From contig JAFDZP010000004.1 of assembly GCA_018266835.1 (NCBI GenBank), positions 310,001 through 374,000 of the forward strand: a stretch of DNA of 64,000 bases, read 5' to 3'. Origin of the DNA: Bacteroidota bacterium. Its GTDB lineage: Bacteria; Bacteroidota; Ignavibacteria; Tepidaquicellales; Tepidaquicellaceae. The stretch's first letter is position 1; every line of letters begins with the position of its first letter. The position numbers were made by a program, and so were the translations under genes. Below the pieces are notes generated by a model. It saw only the letters and a list, made by a program, of their open reading frames with translations. It ran no database searches and had not been told where the DNA came from. Below are positions 46,553-63,272 of the stretch, piece by piece.

Positions 46553-46837
46553 TTACTTCGAAGTTGTGTCTTTTGATGCAGCAGGTTTTGCTTCTGTTTT
46601 GCTTTCAGTTTTTGTTTCTGATTTTTTTGATGTAGACGCTTCCGATGTACTTGATTTCTTATAATCAGTCAGATAAAATCCGCTTCCTTTAAATATTAAT
46701 CCCGCTCCTCCGCTAACCATTTTTTTCAGCTTATCTTTTCCGCACTTAGGGCACTTCGTTAACGGTGCATCTTTCATTGACTGCATTACTTCAATTTCAT
46801 TCCCGCAGTTCTCGCATCTGTATTCGTATGTTGGCAT
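46553..46837 (-). CDS. FmdB/CxxC_CxxC zinc-ribbon regulatory-type protein
   Basis: 94 residues. MPTYEYRCENCG start with CENC and CPKC knuckles, the FmdB-type zinc ribbon, followed by MVSGGAGLIFKGSGFYLTDYK and a low-complexity Ser/Thr/Lys tail. Function unknown; often called a putative regulatory protein. It lies 1 nt after the tubulin-like gene, so the two are likely one transcript, although this small gene is common in many genomes. Confidence 0.9.
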   Translation of the reverse strand: MPTYEYRCENCGNEIEVMQSMKDAPLTKCPKCGKDKLKKMVSGGAGLIFKGSGFYLTDYKKSSTSEASTSKKSETKTESKTEAKPAASKDTTSK

Positions 46838-46838
46838 A

Positions 46839-49800
46839 TTATATTTTTAGAAATTGATTTTTTACTTTATTATATTCTTCTTCGGAAATAAGTCCTTCTT
46901 CCAAAGCTGTTTTGTATTTCTTTAAATCATCTAAAGATAATTTCTCTGTAATTTCGTGTTCAGCTCCGTTTGTTTTCACTTCAGGTTTCTTTTCGTCTTT
47001 AACAAAATCCTTTACTAAAAGATTTGTCTTAAGTTTTCTTTTCTTTCCGTCACCGATTAGTTCGGTAAAATTTGCAAATTCTCTCTTCTGTTTATGCACA
47101 GCATCTATGAATGAAGGGCGTTCTGATTCCTGTATTGAATCCTCTATTTCTTTCGCAAGCTCACGCGCAATTCTGTATTGGTAAGATTCCAGTTTTCTTT
47201 TTTCTTCACCGGCGGATTCTATTTCCATCGGCTTATAAACTTCATCATAATAATATTCGTATATCAAAAGCATTTCAGGAAGCTTGCCTGCCTTCATCAA
47301 TTCTTCTTTAATTTTCTCGGCGTCTTTAAGAATTTTATATCTGAGTGAATCCTTACCCTGTTCTTCAAATAATCTATTCACTAAGCGTGATTCAATTCCG
47401 AGCTGTTCAATTCTTTTTACTGTAATACCTTCCTGCTTAGTGTATTTATAAATCGCTTTGGAATTTTCATTCTCAGGAATTACATCAAACACTCCGAAGA
47501 TCATTCCCATTAAATATGCTCTGTATGCTTCATTAAGTCTCTTCTTCTCTTCTTCATTCAGCGGAATAATATCATTATAGATAAATGCATTTTTTGAAAT
47601 ATGCATATCTACGTTGTGATTATTGCTTAGATGTTTGTAATATCCCTTTAGCTCTTCTGCAATTGTATAAGAATAAAACAACGGCAGTCCTGCCCACTCG
47701 CTGTAGAATGTAATCGAAGAATTATCCCCTGAATCTTTAAACTCAACATTCGAGCCGATGATAGCGGTTATTAAGCTCTGGAATTTCTTGAACGAGTCCG
47801 TATTTGTTTTTATACCCACATAAAATTTCTTTGCAGATTCATCGAGCTTAAAGCTTCCCGGTATCTCTCTTGTTCTCAGCCATGGAAATGCCTGTAAGAA
47901 CATTCCTTTTATCTTCGATTCGCTTCGAGTCGCATCTTTCTCGAACAACATCTCCGTTATATTGTAATCTTCTCTTATTTTTTCAAACTGCTTTTTGCAG
48001 AACTCAACCATCTTATGCTCAATGGCAGATGCATCACTCTCTCTTAATATGTTTACGATGTCAGTTATATCAGATGCTCCCATTTCTTTGAGCAATTGAT
48101 AAGATAATTCCTTCAGCTTATCAGTTGCATTAGAGCCGGTACCGATGTAGCGTATATAATACTCATTCTTCACATCGTCCGGTTCATAAACCATCAGGTT
48201 AAAGCTTGTCTCCTGCTTCTGCTTATAGAATTCGTACTTACGGGTAAAGTTGTCTTTTAAAAGTCCTAAGTTGCCTGTTAATTTCTTTAGATCTGCAATA
48301 AGTCCGTATGCAATTACTTTACCTTTATCAGTCTTTTCAGTTTTTTCAATCAGTTCAAGAATTTTGCTCGCAATCTCTCGCGCATAAACTCTTGCCCGTA
48401 ATTTTATTAATGTGTTATAATATTCTTCTAATAACTTTATCAGTTTTTCAAGATTGCCCGTCATTGCTGATTTTCTCAGCGGATTTAATTTCGAGCGTGA
48501 CTCATCTTCCCTCAGTTCCTGGAATTTTCTCTTTATCTCTCCGTCATATCGTGAAATTATAGTCTGTAAATCTTTTATTTCTTTATCGTATTTCGGAATG
48601 TAATCAAAGTTGCCGTTCGTTAAAATAAATTGAAGCCTGTGCAGCAGATTTACCGAGTAAAACACTCCTCTTGTTGAATCATTTACAAGCGAATTTATCT
48701 TCTTCTCGAGTGTTCCTATATAATTATTTTCTCTGTCGCCGATTACATCTCTGATTATTCTGTTTCTGTTAGTAAAAATTTGTGAGTAATATATTCCCTG
48801 ACGCGTTACATCGTAATCATCTTTGAAATTTGTATCGAACTTCTGCTTCTCTGTTAAAATAAATCCTGTCCAGCTGTCGCCGCGTTTACCGCTTATTAAA
48901 TCGTTCTGTAAATTATTTAAAAATCTTTTTATTTCATTTTGAATGGATGTCTTCTCGCCGCTCTTATATAAGCTATCAAGTAACTGATATCTGTTCGTAG
49001 TCTCAAGTAATCCAAGCTCAGGTAAAAACTCCTGCATTAAATAATTATCTATTTCACTCTGCGAACCTTCTGCATAGGTTAAATAATAATTCACAATGTC
49101 TTCGCATAATTTATATGCGCATGCTGCTATAATTCTATCAGCAGGATATGAAATCGTCGCCTGTCCTAACGTGGAATATTTTCTTGAAAATGTATTATCT
49201 GCTACTGAGTTATCTTCGGGATAAAATCTTTGCTTATACTGAACTAAATTTACTCTTACACCTCTTTTGTAATTCGCAAAATCCGAATTTGAAAAATCTT
49301 GGAATATCGTATCTGCCAGCATTTTATAAATATCTTTATTGCTGATATCCGATAGCGATAAATTCTTAGCATTCTCACCGTCTATTAAATACACATCGTC
49401 ATAAACACCGGGCTGAAAAGTATGCTGCTCATTTTTCTTCCACGATACATTAAAAGTGTTTTTGAGATTGTAATACTCAAGCTCTTTTAATGCAGCATAG
49501 CCGTTTGCAAAAACTCTTTCCTTGCCGTATGATTTAAATATATGCGGAAGCATTAAGTAGCACGAAGAGACGGCCTGATTCTTAAAAATATTCCTGATAA
49601 GAAATCCCATATCGAGAAACATTCCTGAACCTGTGCCGCCGCTGACCGATGAGATAACATATATGTTGATCTTATCTGTGTTGACGTTCCGAATCTTATG
49701 CTTATCTTTTACAATATTTATTGAACGTGAGTCAGTAATTCTTGACTTCGCTGCGGAGAGCTTTGAAACGATTTCATCATAGTTATGAAAAAAAGCAAGT

Positions 49801-50267
49801 CGCGCTGCCGGGCGAATCTGCCCTGCGCCTGTATTCATCGTACCTAGCTTGGCAATTTCACCTGTAGTGCTGAGCCATTCCTTTATATGAGGAACGTCCT
49901 GTATTCTGTAAATGTAATCTGAAGGATTTACTGACTGGAAAACTTTTTCCGACGGGAGAAAATCAATTTCATTAATTAAAAAATCCCTTTCGCGCGCAAG
50001 TCCGCTTTCTTCGGAAGGAGCGTTATCCGTATCGATATATAAATATGAAATGATAGGGAAGTCATTCAGCGAGCCGTACTTCTCAACAAACTGTCTGCGT
50101 AATCTTAATAATACTTCTTTACCTGTTCCGCCTAAGCCGATTAATATGGTGGGCATAAGCTCCTGAGTTTTTAACTCAAGGGACTTATCTTCCTGATTGT
50201 TGGTTACTGTCTTTTTACCTGATAAATCTGCAAATGAAAACGGGTCTTTATTTTCGTTAGCTGCCAT
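46839..50267 (-). CDS. Giant tubulin/FtsZ-like protein (Tubulin_2 type) with C-terminal SHOCT-like motif
   Basis: 1142 residues, far larger than FtsZ (about 400). The N-terminal quarter has tubulin/FtsZ GTP-binding elements in order: T1-like IGLGGTGK (43-50), a YIDTD strand end (77-81) in the place of the FtsZ NTD segment, a T3-like GAGQIRPAAR (147-155), and the T4 signature SVSGGTGSGM (207-216). The middle (about 300-1000) is long, helical and charged with coiled-coil character. The C-terminal 33 residues (LSLDDLKKYKTALEEGLIS, then EEEYNKVKNQFLKI) match a SHOCT oligomerisation motif. No signal peptide. It resembles 'tubulin-like' proteins of unknown function found in scattered bacteria. GTP binding and polymerisation are inferred, not shown. 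Confidence 0.8.
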   Translation of the reverse strand: MAANENKDPFSFADLSGKKTVTNNQEDKSLELKTQELMPTILIGLGGTGKEVLLRLRRQFVEKYGSLNDFPIISYLYIDTDNAPSEESGLARERDFLINEIDFLPSEKVFQSVNPSDYIYRIQDVPHIKEWLSTTGEIAKLGTMNTGAGQIRPAARLAFFHNYDEIVSKLSAAKSRITDSRSINIVKDKHKIRNVNTDKINIYVISSVSGGTGSGMFLDMGFLIRNIFKNQAVSSCYLMLPHIFKSYGKERVFANGYAALKELEYYNLKNTFNVSWKKNEQHTFQPGVYDDVYLIDGENAKNLSLSDISNKDIYKMLADTIFQDFSNSDFANYKRGVRVNLVQYKQRFYPEDNSVADNTFSRKYSTLGQATISYPADRIIAACAYKLCEDIVNYYLTYAEGSQSEIDNYLMQEFLPELGLLETTNRYQLLDSLYKSGEKTSIQNEIKRFLNNLQNDLISGKRGDSWTGFILTEKQKFDTNFKDDYDVTRQGIYYSQIFTNRNRIIRDVIGDRENNYIGTLEKKINSLVNDSTRGVFYSVNLLHRLQFILTNGNFDYIPKYDKEIKDLQTIISRYDGEIKRKFQELREDESRSKLNPLRKSAMTGNLEKLIKLLEEYYNTLIKLRARVYAREIASKILELIEKTEKTDKGKVIAYGLIADLKKLTGNLGLLKDNFTRKYEFYKQKQETSFNLMVYEPDDVKNEYYIRYIGTGSNATDKLKELSYQLLKEMGASDITDIVNILRESDASAIEHKMVEFCKKQFEKIREDYNITEMLFEKDATRSESKIKGMFLQAFPWLRTREIPGSFKLDESAKKFYVGIKTNTDSFKKFQSLITAIIGSNVEFKDSGDNSSITFYSEWAGLPLFYSYTIAEELKGYYKHLSNNHNVDMHISKNAFIYNDIIPLNEEEKKRLNEAYRAYLMGMIFGVFDVIPENENSKAIYKYTKQEGITVKRIEQLGIESRLVNRLFEEQGKDSLRYKILKDAEKIKEELMKAGKLPEMLLIYEYYYDEVYKPMEIESAGEEKRKLESYQYRIARELAKEIEDSIQESERPSFIDAVHKQKREFANFTELIGDGKKRKLKTNLLVKDFVKDEKKPEVKTNGAEHEITEKLSLDDLKKYKTALEEGLISEEEYNKVKNQFLKI

Positions 50268-50372: not shown

Positions 50373-51164
50373 TTAAAGCTCTACGATACTTTCGCCGCCT
50401 GCTAACTGAATTGTATTACCTGTAAGCCAGGCCGAATCCGATTTATAATTATCAACTATGAACTGTGCGATATCTTCAGGAGTAGTTAATCTCTTCGAAG
50501 GATTTCTTTGTAATGCATTTGCAATGATTGCATCCGCTCCCGGAATTTTATTTAATGCCGGAGTAGAAGTAACGCCTGCGCAGATTGCATTCACTGCTAT
50601 TCCTTTTCCGCCAAGCTCCATAGCAAGCTGTCGTGTATATGATTCAAGACATGCCTTAGCTGCGGAGACAACTCCGTAGTAAGCAATTTGTCTTGTTCCG
50701 CCGGATGAAGTCATGCTGTATATTTTACCTCCTTTAGTCATTAAACCTCTTCTCATCATTCCCTGTGTCCAGTACACAAAGCTGCTTGCCATAACATCTA
50801 AAGTCATTTCAAGCTGCTTTCTGTTTACTTCGTTGTTCGGGTCGTCATCAATAAATTTTTTGAGCGAGCCGAATGCAAGCGAGTGAACCATTACTCTTAT
50901 TGTAGAATCTGAATCGCCGAATTTTTCTTTAATCTTATCAAGAATTTCATTTCTCTTTCCGTCATCAGCAGCATTAACATTGTAAAAATCTGCTTCAACA
51001 CCCATGCCCTTTATATCAGCGATCTGCTGATTTACATCATCCATAGTTGAAGCTCTGTCTAAATGAACGCCGATTATATTCACGCCGTCCTTAGCAAGTG
51101 CCAGTGAAATTGCTTTTCCGAATCCGCTTGATGCGCCGAGTATTAATGCATAATATTTAGTCAT
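50373..51164 (-). CDS. SDR-family enoyl-ACP reductase-like protein (FabL/FabI-like)
   Basis: 263 residues. N-terminal nucleotide motif GASSGFGKA (10-18). The catalytic Tyr163 and Lys170 are separated by six residues (YxxxxxxK), as in enoyl-ACP reductases FabI/FabL, rather than the YxxxK of ordinary SDRs. SAAKACLESYTRQLAMELGGKGIAVNAICAG and WLTGNTIQLAGG resemble FabL. It would catalyse the last step of each fatty-acid elongation cycle, consistent with nearby accB and accC. Confidence 0.85.
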   Translation of the reverse strand: MTKYYALILGASSGFGKAISLALAKDGVNIIGVHLDRASTMDDVNQQIADIKGMGVEADFYNVNAADDGKRNEILDKIKEKFGDSDSTIRVMVHSLAFGSLKKFIDDDPNNEVNRKQLEMTLDVMASSFVYWTQGMMRRGLMTKGGKIYSMTSSGGTRQIAYYGVVSAAKACLESYTRQLAMELGGKGIAVNAICAGVTSTPALNKIPGADAIIANALQRNPSKRLTTPEDIAQFIVDNYKSDSAWLTGNTIQLAGGESIVEL

Positions 51165-51175
51165 TAGAAGGGTAT

Positions 51176-51727
51176 TTATTTTGATTTAATAGCTATTATA
51201 GTCATAATGAGACTTATTATAAACAGAAAAATCATCACGACCATGAAGGCAGATGACGTCCAGAACCCTGCTACAAGTCCCCAGATTATAAAAATCCAAA
51301 TGATTGATACGACAAAGAATAAATTCCAGCTAAGCAGAAGTGACTGTCTGGTAGAACGTTTTTTGTGAAACGATTTGAAAAGCGTAAGCACAAATATGAA
51401 AAAGAAAAATCCGAGTCCGCCTGCTGAAAGTAAAATGTAAATGAAAAGCTTCGTATTAGTAAGAGTATTCTCCGATACGGGAGCAGTAAGAACAGAATCG
51501 ATTTTCTTTACCGTATCTATCGGTGTAACAGGTGGAGCTTGTTGTTGCGGAACAGTCTTATTCGTATCAATTGAAAGCGGATTTACTTTCGATGTATCAG
51601 TTTTCTGTCCTGCAGTTGTCTGCTTTTTAGTGGAATCAACTTTAGTCGGGAGATTTGGTTTCCCGATTGAAAGCTGAGTTAAACATAATAAAAAAATTAC
51701 TGCAAATATTTTAAGCATGGTTTTCAA
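51176..51727 (-). CDS. Hypothetical membrane protein with Pro/Thr-rich linker
   Basis: 183 residues. A signal peptide (about 1-22) is followed by a Lys/Thr/Pro/Gln-rich low-complexity linker (about 28-85) and three hydrophobic helices (about 93-115, 132-150, 155-180). No family recognised. The start could be Met4 instead of Met1. It sits between the FabL-like gene and accC, 11 nt from the former. Confidence 0.6.
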   Translation of the reverse strand: MKTMLKIFAVIFLLCLTQLSIGKPNLPTKVDSTKKQTTAGQKTDTSKVNPLSIDTNKTVPQQQAPPVTPIDTVKKIDSVLTAPVSENTLTNTKLFIYILLSAGGLGFFFFIFVLTLFKSFHKKRSTRQSLLLSWNLFFVVSIIWIFIIWGLVAGFWTSSAFMVVMIFLFIISLIMTIIAIKSK

Positions 51728-51759: not shown

Positions 51760-53094
51760 TTATATTCCAAGTTTTTCAATAAAGCTTGTATCGTAATTAT
51801 TATTTATGAAGTCTTCGTTCTTCATAATTATCATGTGGAAAGGAATAGTAGTTTTAATTCCTTCAACAATAAATTCCTCAAGCGCACGTGACATTTTTTT
51901 TATCGCTTCTTCTCTTGTTCTTCCTTTTACTATTAATTTCCCGATCATCGAATCATAATAAGGCGGAATTCTGTATCCGTTATAACAATGTGTATCAACA
52001 CGTACGCCAAAACCGCCGGGCTGATTTAATGCTGTTATTAATCCCGGAGATGGTCTGAAGTTATGTTCGTAATCTTCTGCGTTAATTCTGCACTCCATTG
52101 CATGGCCTTCGAATTTTATTTCGCCGAGGTTAAGCTCTTCACCGTTTGCAACTCTTATTTGTTCTCGAATTAAATCTATTCCTGTAATCTCTTCCGTTAC
52201 GCAGTGCTCAACCTGAATTCGTGTGTTCATTTCCATGAAATAAAAATCTTTGTTTTTATCTACAAGGAATTCAATTGTACCTGCGCCGATGTAATTCACG
52301 GCTTTAGCTGCTTTAATTGCAGCCTCGCCCATCTTCTGACGGATTTCAGCATTGATAAAAGGAGAAGGGGACTCTTCAATTAATTTCTGATGTCTTCTCT
52401 GAACGGAGCAGTCTCTTTCACCGAGGTGAATGACATTCCCGTGTTTATCGCCTAAAACCTGTATCTCAACGTGTCTTGGATTTTCAACAAACTTCTCAAT
52501 ATAAACATCGTCATTACCGAAAGCATTCTCTGCTTCAAGTCTTGCCTGCATATAATTTTTTTCAACGTCTGCAAGATCTCGAACAATACGCATACCTTTT
52601 CCGCCGCCGCCTGCTGATGCTTTAATCATAAGAGGCACGCCGGTTTTCTGAGCGACTTCAAGCGCTTCTTCAACACTGTTTACAACTCCTGTGCTTCCCG
52701 GAACAACAGGTACTCCTGCTGCAATCATAGTATCTTTTGCAAAGGATTTGTTTCCCATTGCATTTATCATATCAGGAAGCGGTCCTATGAAATTTAATTT
52801 TGAGTCTATACATATCTCTGCAAAGTCAGCGTTTTCAGCTAAGAAGCCATAGCCCGGATGAATAGCGTCTGCATTGGTAATAGATGCTGCAGAAATTATT
52901 CTCGGAATATTTAAGTAGCTGTCCTTGCCCATTGCGCCGCCGATACAAACTGCTTCATCTGCAAACTTTACATGCAACGAATCCTTATCTGCATCTGAGT
53001 AAACGGCAACGGTTTTAATTCCCATCTCTTTCGCAGTTCTAATTATACGTAACGCTATCTCGCCGCGATTGGCAATGAGTATTTTTTTTATCAT
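51760..53094 (-). CDS. accC: Acetyl-CoA carboxylase biotin carboxylase subunit
   Basis: 444 residues. ATP-grasp enzyme: [18 protein letters not shown] start, ATP loop [14 protein letters not shown], HxE region [35 protein letters not shown] catalytic stretch. Carboxylates biotin on the BCCP encoded immediately upstream in transcription order. Confidence 0.97.
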
Positions 53095-53170
53095 TATAAA
53101 CTTTTCTGTTTGGTTGAAAGAATTAAAACTTAACTCTTAATCTAATTCTCTTAATCTAATTCTTTTTTGC

Positions 53171-53653
53171 TTAATTTTTTTCAATTAAGAATAACGGCTG
53201 ATTGTATTCAACCGGCTGACCATTTTCAACGAGAATCTTTATTATTTTTCCTGATACTTCAGATTCGATTTCATTCATTAATTTCATGGCTTCTATAATA
53301 CATAAAACACTTCCTTCACCGACTGAGCTTCCGACCTGTACGTATGCATCTGCATCAGGTGACGGCGCGCGGTAGAATGTTCCTACCATTGGTGAACGGA
53401 CTTCATATGAATTTTCTGATTTAGGCGCTTCAGCTGGTTTTGCATCTGATTTCTTCTCGATTGAAACCTGAGTTTCAGAAGAGGCAGGAGCTTGCATCAT
53501 TTGCATAGGAGCAGCGGACATCATTCCTGTTACTTTTGGTCTTGGCTTGGATAATCTTATTTTGCTTCCCTGTTCTTCTATTTCAAGCTCTGCAAGATTG
53601 CTTGAATCGAGCAGCTTTATTAACTTCTTTAAGTAGTTTAAATCAATTTCCAT
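53171..53653 (-). CDS. accB: Acetyl-CoA carboxylase biotin carboxyl carrier protein
   Basis: 160 residues. N-terminal helix, Ala/Pro/Met-rich linker (about 40-80), and biotinyl domain with the EAMKLMNE motif; Lys124 is the biotinylated residue. Together with accC it makes one half of acetyl-CoA carboxylase. The carboxyltransferase subunits accA/accD are not in the window. Confidence 0.97.
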
Positions 53654-53667
53654 ATTGGTTGTGGTTT

Positions 53668-53693
53668 GTCATTCCCGCGAAGGCGGGAATCCA
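53668..53693. repeat. Short palindromic repeat (gtcattcccgcgaaggcgggaatcca)
   Basis: A 26-nt element identical to the one at 55667-55692. A cccgc-gaag-gcggg hairpin with conserved flanks. It lies between efp and accB on the - strand transcript. Confidence 0.85.
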
Positions 53694-53765
53694 TTTATAA
53701 AAAATTTTTAAAAATGTCTAACTTTGTAATATTCCAAAACTCATTTTTGGAGTGGTTAATTTTTA

Positions 53766-54329
53766 TTAAACTTTTGCTCTTTCGATGTAATCTCCGGTAC
53801 GTGAATCAATCTTAAGGTAATCACCTTCATTGATAAAAAGCGGAGCGTTAACTGTTGCGCCGGTTTCAACTTCAACCTGCTTTGTTGCGCCTGTTGCAGT
53901 ATCACCTTTTATTCCCGGAGGAGCAGATATAACCTTTAATATAACGTGCGGAGCAAGCTCGGCAGAGATCGGCTTCATACCATGGAACATTATCTGCACG
54001 GCTTCGCCTTCTTTCATAAAGTCAGCTTGCTTACCCATTATTGCAGTAGGGATGTGAACCTGATCGTATGTTTCATTATCCATAAATATCAGCTCATCGC
54101 CTTGTTTGTATAAAAACTGAAAACTTTTCTGGTCAAGACGTTCAATCTGAATTTCTTCGCCTGAACGGAAGCGATTTTCAAATGTTTTGCCGTTCTTTAA
54201 ATTTCTTAATTTTACCTGATAAAATGCTCTTAAATTGCCTGGAGTTCTGTGTTCTACCGATAAAACGCTGCATAATTCGTTATTGAAATTAATCACAATG
54301 CCGTTTTTTAAGTCAGAAGTATTTGCCAT
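53766..54329 (-). CDS. efp: Translation elongation factor P
   Basis: 187 residues, three OB-like domains: VINFNNELCSVLSVEHRTPGNLRAF in domain I, and the C-terminal GDYLKIDSRTGDYIERAKV. It relieves ribosome stalling at polyproline. The tip of the domain I loop is normally Lys or Arg (PGKG/PGRG); here the residue is Asn32 (TPGNLRAF), so the Lys- and Arg-specific modification routes should not apply to this protein. Confidence 0.95.
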   Translation of the reverse strand: MANTSDLKNGIVINFNNELCSVLSVEHRTPGNLRAFYQVKLRNLKNGKTFENRFRSGEEIQIERLDQKSFQFLYKQGDELIFMDNETYDQVHIPTAIMGKQADFMKEGEAVQIMFHGMKPISAELAPHVILKVISAPPGIKGDTATGATKQVEVETGATVNAPLFINEGDYLKIDSRTGDYIERAKV

Positions 54330-57384: not shown

Positions 57385-58611
57385 TTGGATAGAAAAGAAT
57401 TAATAAAGCTTAAATGCGATCTGCTCATTAACGGATTACGCCTGAATGAGCTAAGAAAAGATTTAGTTGAAACCCAGGGATGGGATAAGGAACGGGCTCA
57501 GTGTTTTCTTCCCGCAGAATTAAAAATGCCGTCGGAAGTTTTCGTTCAAATAAGAGAGAACTCTGAAGCTAATTTTAGATTAAGAATATTTGAAGACAAG
57601 CTCTTCATTCAGGACAAGGCAAATAATAAAATTACTCCTGCTGACTTTGTATCGCTTCCTCCATTCTCAAAAAATTTCACAAACGATTTAACTCCGTTTG
57701 AAAAAATTGTTGTATATAACGGAACATGTAACCTGAACTTTACATGGAATTACTATTGCGATTACTTCCGCACAAAGCAAGAATGCAAATTCTGCAATCT
57801 TACTCCCGCGCAGGATTTTTATCCCGAAGAAAATATTTCCAACGCACGAAAGAATGCAGCGCAGGTTGCCGATGTAATTGCTGCGGCAAAACAATTTCAT
57901 CCTGATCCGAAATCTATTCTGACACGCGGCACTCCTGCGGAGAAGCAGGGACTTGGCGGCACGATTCAGATATTAGAAGAGCTTGCTACACGCTTCCCCT
58001 ATAAAAATGATAAAGAGAGAACAAAAGTTTTAATGACGATATCTCCAACTCAGGATATCAACGACGTAAAAACAATTTATGATTTAGGTCTTCACAGTAT
58101 ATCATATAACTTTGAAGTATTTGATAAAGGTTACTGGAAGGCAATTGTTCCCGGTAAAGATTCTTTCATAGGAAGAGACTTATGGGAAGAGTCATTGATT
58201 AAAGCAGTTGATTACTACGGACCGGGCAGAGTTTTTTCAGCAATGATTGCAGGGCTTGAGCCGAGAAAATCTTTACTTGAAGGAGTTGAGTGGTGCGCCA
58301 ATAGGGGAATCGTTCCTATAGTTGTTCCTTTCTCGCCCGAAACCGGCAGCGCATTCGAAGGCTTCCGTCCGCCCACATACAAATGGATGATGGATACTCA
58401 TTTAATGGCTGCAGATATTATGCTTAAAAAACTTCCGTTGCTTGGAACTGAAGAATACTGGAAAGAAGATGCGCCCATTTGCGCAGAGTGCTTTACAGGA
58501 GGATTTATCTATGACATCGTAAAAGAAAATGCAGGACTTACCGATTATCATTCATGCAATGTTTTGAGCAAAGAAAAGTTAGTTCCGGAATCAGCAGAAA
58601 AAACTGCTTAA
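57385..58611 (+). CDS. Radical-SAM-like protein 1 (C-x8-C-x2-C)
   Basis: 408 residues from TTG 57385. Cys125, Cys134 and Cys137 (CDYFRTKQECKFCN) form a C-x8-C-x2-C site in place of the usual CxxxCxxC, with Cys115 ten residues upstream also conserved in the paralogue at 62043. After it comes a TIM-barrel-like sequence: TISPTQDINDVKTIYDLGLHSISYNFEVFDKGYW, AMIAGLEPRKSLLEGVEWC, VPIVVPFSPETGSAFEG. This matches radical-SAM barrel strands, including the family's GLE and PETG turns. A C-terminal CAEC pair could bind a further cluster or zinc. The reaction is unknown. Proximity suggests the repeat peptide as substrate (inference). Confidence 0.75.
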   Translation: MDRKELIKLKCDLLINGLRLNELRKDLVETQGWDKERAQCFLPAELKMPSEVFVQIRENSEANFRLRIFEDKLFIQDKANNKITPADFVSLPPFSKNFTNDLTPFEKIVVYNGTCNLNFTWNYYCDYFRTKQECKFCNLTPAQDFYPEENISNARKNAAQVADVIAAAKQFHPDPKSILTRGTPAEKQGLGGTIQILEELATRFPYKNDKERTKVLMTISPTQDINDVKTIYDLGLHSISYNFEVFDKGYWKAIVPGKDSFIGRDLWEESLIKAVDYYGPGRVFSAMIAGLEPRKSLLEGVEWCANRGIVPIVVPFSPETGSAFEGFRPPTYKWMMDTHLMAADIMLKKLPLLGTEEYWKEDAPICAECFTGGFIYDIVKENAGLTDYHSCNVLSKEKLVPESAEKTA

Positions 58612-62042: not shown

Positions 62043-63272
62043 ATGACATTAGACGAAGCAATAAGATTAAAAACAGAATTACTTATAGAGGGACTTACAC
62101 TTACCGATGAAGCAATGACTACAGTCGGGCAGGGCGGAATGGAAAAAGTTTTCTGGGTATTCGAAATGACTCAGGCAACACATAAAGGAACAGGTGACGG
62201 TTCACGTCCGCTTCCAAACGATATGCTTTTGCCGTATGATTTGTATGTCGATGTGCGATACAGCCCTAAGTCACCATTCAAGGTTCATAAGAGCGGTGAT
62301 GCAGTTGTTCTTATGAAGAATAATGTTGAGATCTGTGAAGTGCGTTGGCCGAACAGACCTCATTACTACGGGAAGAAAACCCGCAGCGGCGAGTGGATGA
62401 AAAAAGTTGCTTCAATGCGCGGCGACTGCGGACTACGTGTTTGCTTTGATAATGCCTGCACATACTTCGGTAAAAAAGAGCAGTGTAAATTCTGCAATAT
62501 CGTGCCTGCAAGACAGAGAAATAAAGACCACGTTGTAACAATAAAGGAAGCTGAAGATATTTATGATGTGGTGAAGGAAGCGATAATTGATAATCCTGTC
62601 TGCTCGCACCTTGCAATGACGGCAGGCGCAGCGAAAGATGACGGTCTTGGGAATCTTCCTGAGATATTGGAAAAATTAAAACCGCTCTTAGCGCAAAAAT
62701 ATTTCCCGATAGTAACTGCCATAACTGCAACAAGAAATATAGAGGAAACACAATATTTATGTTCCACAGGAATAAGTTCAGTCGCATTTAATCTTGAAAT
62801 ATGGGATGAGAAAATTTTTAGCGAGATTTGTCCCGGAAAGACAAGAAGGGTAGGAAGAGAAAGATGGATTCAGTCATTAAAAGAAGCCAGAGATTTATTA
62901 AAACCTGCAAGAGCATTAAGTTCATTCGTTGTGGGACTTGAACCGATGGAATCAGTTTTAGCAGGAATAAATTATTTATCTACGGAAGGAATTTTTCCTA
63001 TTATGAGTCCTTTCATCCCGATGGTAGGAACTGAATACGAAGGCAAGGAGCCGCCGAAAATTGACTGGGTATGGGATGTACATGAAAAGGCAACAGAGAT
63101 AATTTATAAAAATCTTCCTGATGCATTCTGCGATGAGATATGGGACGGCGATATCGGCATCTGCCCATCATGCACAACGACGAAATTATTTTTTGATTTC
63201 ATGAGAAGAATAGTTCCGAGAGATAATCCGAGAAGGATAATGTCGCCGGAAAGTGTAAGTGCAATAGCGTAA
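62043..63272 (+). CDS. Radical-SAM-like protein 2 (C-x8-C-x2-C), paralogue of the one at 57385
   Basis: 409 residues. The same layout as the protein at 57385: N-terminal 120 residues, Cys129, then Cys139, Cys148 and Cys151 (CTYFGKKEQCKFCN) giving C-x8-C-x2-C. Barrel motifs are TATRNIEETQYLCSTGISSVAFNLEIWDEKIFSEI, SFVVGLEPMESVLAGINYL and FPIMSPFIPMVGTEYEGKEPP. A C-terminal CPSC pair follows. The many shared motifs (QCKFCN, GLEPxxSVL/SLL) show duplication and divergence. Reaction unknown; placed 136 nt after the YdeI-like gene. Confidence 0.75.
   Translation: MTLDEAIRLKTELLIEGLTLTDEAMTTVGQGGMEKVFWVFEMTQATHKGTGDGSRPLPNDMLLPYDLYVDVRYSPKSPFKVHKSGDAVVLMKNNVEICEVRWPNRPHYYGKKTRSGEWMKKVASMRGDCGLRVCFDNACTYFGKKEQCKFCNIVPARQRNKDHVVTIKEAEDIYDVVKEAIIDNPVCSHLAMTAGAAKDDGLGNLPEILEKLKPLLAQKYFPIVTAITATRNIEETQYLCSTGISSVAFNLEIWDEKIFSEICPGKTRRVGRERWIQSLKEARDLLKPARALSSFVVGLEPMESVLAGINYLSTEGIFPIMSPFIPMVGTEYEGKEPPKIDWVWDVHEKATEIIYKNLPDAFCDEIWDGDIGICPSCTTTKLFFDFMRRIVPRDNPRRIMSPESVSAIA

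Follow-up and report, generated by a model that had tools for sequence, protein, structure and literature searches.

The FtsZl1 family of bacterial tubulin-like proteins was defined by Makarova and Koonin (2010; PMC2875224). Its members have an N-terminal FtsZ-like domain with the T1 and T4 loops, followed by an extended coiled coil and a helical C-terminal domain (PMC2875224). The genes usually share an operon with those of vWA, GTPase, kinase or OmpA proteins, and a role in membrane remodelling was predicted (PMC2875224). The T6-H7 region was not identifiable for the authors, who considered that filament formation may be absent (PMC2875224). In 2023, Tubulin_2 (PF13809) sequences served to root the FtsZ/tubulin tree (PMC9871819). 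In Synechocystis, disruption of the Tubulin_2 gene sll0445 impaired phototaxis, and Sll0445 co-fractionates with pilus proteins (PMC9880817). NCBI labels relatives on plasmids as 'tubulin-like doman-containing protein'. With a publication from 2010, a Pfam model, an NCBI name and one disrupted Synechocystis gene, the family is better known than the first-pass annotation held, which had called proteins of this kind poorly described.

The FtsZl1 protein of the window

The window, the whole stretch of 64,000 nucleotides that was analysed, contains a genuine open reading frame with an ATG start for a tubulin-like protein of 1142 amino acids, here called TUB (Table 1). The Tubulin_2 profile is covered almost completely (positions 1-355 of 356; E=3.3e-75, 254 bits with a cut-off of 27) and was matched by all ten scanned orthologues. 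A weaker match was obtained with the Tubulin/FtsZ model of Pfam (E=0.0039). NCBIfam had zero matches, and Pfam found neither an FtsZ_C nor a tubulin C-terminal domain. Judged by its sequence, TUB is a member of FtsZl1, that is, of Tubulin_2. A neighbouring vWA gene is usual but not defining for this family, so the membership stands without it. The closest relative outside the family of the host, an Ignavibacteria family referred to as f1, is an Azospirillum plasmid protein of 1214 amino acids (24% identity over 977 columns, E=4e-59). The next is a protein of 1208 amino acids from a genome of the same phylum, G438 (26% over 1073 columns, E=1e-54). The FtsZ encoded by the same genome has 404 amino acids. 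TUB is 2.8 times longer, as expected from the first-pass annotation (almost three times FtsZ size).

Table 1. Features of TUB and its gene cluster in the window.
Feature	Position	Strand	Evidence or remark
TUB, FtsZl1/Tubulin_2 protein, 1142 aa	46839..50267	(-)	Pfam E=3.3e-75; orthologues in family
Tubulin_2 GTPase-like domain, residues 41-392	49092..50147	(-)	Pfam; low-confidence model matching tubulin superfamily
T1 loop GLGGTG, residues 44-49	50121..50138	(-)	Alignment
T4 loop GGTGSG, residues 210-215	49623..49640	(-)	Pfam, alignment
Putative T7-like loop NSDFAN, residues 327-332	49272..49289	(-)	Predicted strand and long helix precede, FtsZ order
Middle and C-terminal part with predicted helices, residues 393-1075, including His889	47043..49091	(-)	Alignment; model unreliable here
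SHOCT-like tail, residues 1114-1138	46854..46928	(-)	Pfam, orthologue matches
MP183, candidate membrane partner, 3 TM	51176..51727	(-)	Presence/absence with TUB; hydropathy; alignment
SDR/FabI-like reductase between MP183 and TUB	50373..51164	(-)	Stays when both are absent
FmdB-type zinc ribbon	46553..46837	(-)	Starts 1 base past TUB stop; stays when TUB is absent
accC, accB, efp, conserved upstream genes	51760..54329	(-)	Cluster conservation

The T1 and T4 loops are kept in nearly all of 15 aligned relatives. Of the three loops named in the first-pass annotation, these two hold. The third, called T3-like, is a loose assignment: the strand ahead of it, LYIDTD (residues 76-81), corresponds to the S2/T2 'AINTD' of FtsZ. 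From 10 close sequences, AlphaFold gave a weak model for residues 32-402 (mean pLDDT 45.3). The full-length prediction had long helices and was unusable (mean pLDDT 38.6). With the N-terminal model, the top three Foldseek matches were tubulins at E values of 0.012-0.022, which alone are not significant. In a structural comparison, CetZ and BtubA were among the 50 matches listed, all of which belonged to the tubulin superfamily. For this model, with its mean pLDDT of 45, Z was 8.3-9.6 and rmsd 3.7-7.1 across 151-219 residues. Because the PDB is rich in tubulins, these matches agree with Pfam and are not independent proof. A sequence search of the PDB found no solved relative. A profile-profile comparison with the FtsZ of the same genome aligned T1 and T4 at a weak score. 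The predicted fold of the N-terminus, which the first-pass annotation had set as the check that could refute its tubulin reading, thus came out tubulin-like in all listed matches of a weak model.

Past T4, a strand (residues 291-296), a helix (309-325), the motif NSDFAN and a further helix (334-348) are predicted. This is the order S6-H7-T7-H8 of FtsZ. The T7 loop of FtsZ reads NVDFAD in this lineage. At the positions of NSDFAN, the Azospirillum relative has SSDFAQ and a cyanobacterial relative TSDFAP. Such a motif occurred a single time in 460,672 amino acids of unrelated open reading frames. NSDFAN is proposed as the putative T7 equivalent that the 2010 study could not place. The second aspartate of NxDFAD, the catalytic acid in FtsZ, is an asparagine in TUB. 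The missing acid predicts a slow or altered GTP hydrolysis. Together with the unplaced T6-H7 region of FtsZl1, it also suggests that polymerisation may be unusual or absent.

The middle region of TUB is 64-72% identical across the family and, being conserved, is not filler. All 16 FtsZl1 proteins of the alignment have His889 (window 47601-47603), and Tyr876 is almost invariant. The SHOCT-like end described in the first-pass annotation is below the cut-off of PF09851 in the window protein itself (E=0.0026, 17.9 of 27 bits). It is probably a genuine family feature because nine of ten scanned orthologues match (best E=4.4e-6); the tenth is truncated. A SHOCT tail is suggestive of self-association. 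In the genomes G005 and G020, TUB is broken into two open reading frames (L036:7015-10439, L040:2072-5295) by a frameshift, a sequencing error or a real break.

These features bear on the question of filaments. TUB may be a nucleotide-switched scaffold or adaptor that forms no filaments, holds a signalling or repair complex with the membrane protein MP183 and a vWA protein (see below) at the membrane, and uses GTP only to set its conformation. The intact T1 and T4 loops in nearly all family members and the self-association suggested by the SHOCT tail argue against this reading, which is considered doubtful. It would account for the asparagine in place of the second T7 acid, for the FtsZ/tubulin C-terminal domain not found by Pfam and for the much larger size of the conserved non-GTPase part, and the 2010 authors allow for FtsZl1 proteins without filaments (PMC2875224).

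Inheritance, gene cluster and the membrane protein MP183

TUB is a single-copy gene in 23 of 29 genomes of f1. Among 59 relatives searched, these 23 were the only carriers (60-91% identity), and TUB was never found in the sister family f2. Tubulin_2 was present in 28 of 391 genomes of a class-wide sample, 22 of them from f1, and in 13 of 395 genomes of a phylum-wide sample. In the same 13 genomes, the mean identity to the window was 69.9% for TUB, 69.1% for efp, 73.1% for accC and 74.1% for LptB. TUB is as conserved as its core neighbours and is vertically inherited in f1. No relative was found in the viral contigs and phages searched.

An origin as a domesticated component of a defence or conflict system is highly unlikely. 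Other Tubulin_2 loci do lie on plasmids or near TIR, caspase-like or BREX genes, and a second, patchy Tubulin_2-like locus exists in the same genome. PADLOC had no match for TUB, however, phages had none either, and the gene is vertically inherited in one fixed cluster.

This cluster has the order efp-accB-accC-MP183-SDR-TUB-FmdB, faces LptB and is conserved across f1. No vWA gene lies beside TUB in the f1 loci. The conserved order could point to a regulation or organisation of fatty acid synthesis by TUB, with acetyl-CoA carboxylase and the FabI-like reductase as partners. Such a role is very unlikely: genomes that lack TUB and MP183 still have conserved accB, accC and SDR genes in place, and in genus g7 extra genes, including an MFS-type transporter, lie between SDR and TUB and part TUB from the cluster. 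In G019, a type I restriction-modification-like cluster (L034:12540-16394) separates TUB from the rest of the acc cluster. The gap between SDR and TUB may be an insertion-prone site. Further along the window, positions 57385-58611 and 62043-63272 encode two proteins of about 408 amino acids that look related by eye. Both have a cysteine-rich CKFCN motif recalling radical-SAM-like enzymes; the protein at 57385-58611 had no Pfam match.

According to hydropathy and alignment, MP183 has three transmembrane segments, a signal-like segment and a linker that varies apart from a conserved IDT. The loop between the first two transmembrane segments is conserved and charged (FHKxxSTRQ). Pfam had no match for MP183. 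The gene was found in 23 of the 59 genomes, 22 times with TUB; 35 genomes had neither and two only one of both. In G025 (one contig, closed), G023 and G015, TUB and MP183 are cleanly absent from an intact efp-accB-accC-SDR-FmdB-LptB cluster, despite the position of SDR between them. SDR is also present in f2 and is not part of the pair, since it is kept when both are absent. A tree of eight neighbouring genes places G023 and G025 as sisters of G016, a carrier of both genes, with G015 next to them (support 68). Two joint losses of TUB and MP183 are the simplest reading of this tree. Both genes are kept in G019, yet 15 kb apart after the restriction-modification insertion. Of the two unpaired cases, G001 has TUB without MP183 and its contig stops inside TUB. 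G026 has kept MP183 and TUB was not found in its assembly of 330 contigs (93% complete), in which homology to the sister G027 stops just before TUB. It could be a real exception to the pairing.

Small membrane proteins likewise adjoin the tubulin genes of other FtsZl1 loci. A homology of MP183 to them was rejected: hhalign scored no better than with unrelated membrane proteins.

A vWA protein at a second locus

In canonical operons of the class, a vWA gene adjoins the tubulin gene (G217, G312, G230 and G117). In the genome of the window (G000), a vWA protein of 549 amino acids is encoded at a separate locus (contig C2, about 979.3-980.9 kb). It has a signal peptide, a DNSGSM motif and one C-terminal transmembrane segment. 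A counterpart in G012 is 61% identical, and in both genomes a gene for a protein of about 420 amino acids precedes it. In a comparison with proteins from FtsZl1 loci, the 549-aa protein matched only the vWA protein of the tubulin operon of G438 (25% identity over 71% of the length, E=5e-21). There, the gene order is a 531-aa protein, vWA and tubulin. By this homology and gene order, the second f1 locus resembles the missing half of a G438-type operon, a link based on two f1 genomes and one operon. For the protein of about 420 amino acids, no homology was detected to the corresponding proteins, including the 531-aa protein of G438. A scan of 1.61 Mb (67%) of G025, a genome that lacks TUB, found neither gene; it included the sites beside a Sua5 gene and around an enolase homologue, which flank the vWA locus of G000. 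Another vWA protein, of 365 amino acids, was rejected as a partner of TUB: it occurs in f2 without TUB and is absent from several genomes with TUB.

Further Tubulin_2-like proteins were seen. In G217 and G312, a second protein of about 1050 amino acids is encoded directly after the tubulin gene (L091:4266-7481, L092:4502-7648). That of G312 has its own weak Tubulin_2 match and suggests a two-tubulin arrangement. The genome of the window encodes a second, divergent Tubulin_2-like protein of 545 amino acids (contig C6, about 205-214 kb; L175:8980-17616), barely above the cut-off at 29.5 bits. Its operon includes a 153-aa membrane protein with a lipoprotein-like signal, a 481-aa lipoprotein and proteins of 1205 and 474 amino acids. 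A matching operon was present in G172 (L097) and not found in the other 43 relatives searched.

Proposed function and comparison with known systems

With moderate confidence, TUB, MP183 and the 549-aa vWA protein are proposed to form a split FtsZl1/vWA envelope-scaffold system, GTP-dependent and membrane-anchored, within the standing gene set of f1. The tubulin-like domain most likely binds GTP, and TUB would self-assemble beneath the inner membrane, where its predicted long helices and the SHOCT-like tail would provide further contacts. MP183 would probably serve as the anchor or receptor in the membrane. Its linker is predicted to be periplasmic and its positively charged conserved loop cytoplasmic. 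The vWA protein is a likely sensor on the envelope side, a periplasmic module that may be coupled to TUB. The possible scaffold of the first-pass annotation agrees with this proposal, as a possibility; MP183 and the unlinked vWA protein had gone unnoticed there.

The more specific notion of a fixed chromosomal, membrane-anchored tubulin-like cytoskeleton other than FtsZ is tentative and rather less likely to hold. It would consist of a giant FtsZl1 polymer, the 3-TM anchor MP183 and the vWA sensor from the second locus, reaching across the envelope. TUB as a second division tubulin is extremely unlikely. Its superfamily membership would allow this, but each of the seven genomes checked had a normal FtsZ, whether it carried TUB or not, so TUB is not the division tubulin, and an FtsZ C-terminal domain was not found in it. 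A pilus link as in Synechocystis was rejected as well: none of 21 genomes searched had a PilT-family match, and the pilus function of Sll0445 thus does not transfer to TUB.

As far as the literature searched shows, an FtsZl1 variant that is chromosomally fixed, split from its vWA gene, embedded among housekeeping genes and tied to MP183, from an undescribed 3-TM family, has not been described. A family known since 2010 comes down here to one vertically maintained gene per genome and a single membrane protein that is inherited with it. The natural double losses in close relatives turn the prediction of membrane remodelling into a named, testable interaction of two proteins.

With FtsZ, TubZ, CetZ and tubulin, TUB has the N-terminal superfamily fold, T1, T4 and possibly a T7-like loop in common. 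It differs by a roughly threefold size, by an FtsZ/tubulin C-terminal domain that was not found and by the missing second T7 acid. Sll0445 belongs to the same Pfam family; its co-fractionation with pilus proteins is not carried over. The protein of plasmid p2 of Azospirillum sp. TSA2s (WP_136701486.1) and the chromosomal protein of G438 (L137) align with TUB over nearly the full length at 24-26% identity. The Azospirillum gene also neighbours a 3-TM protein, but its locus is compact and has OmpA and caspase-like genes, unlike the TUB locus. In the likewise compact G438 locus, the neighbour is the vWA protein homologous to that of the TUB genome, and a GYF_2 tail takes the place of SHOCT. With the FtsZl1 family as a whole, TUB shares the tubulin-like N-terminus with T1 and T4, a length of about 1000 amino acids or more and a middle and C-terminal part predicted to form long helices. 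The typical operon with vWA, GTPase, kinase or OmpA genes is replaced by a housekeeping acc/efp cluster, and TUB is set apart by its SHOCT-like tail, a new candidate 3-TM partner and a vWA protein at a separate locus.
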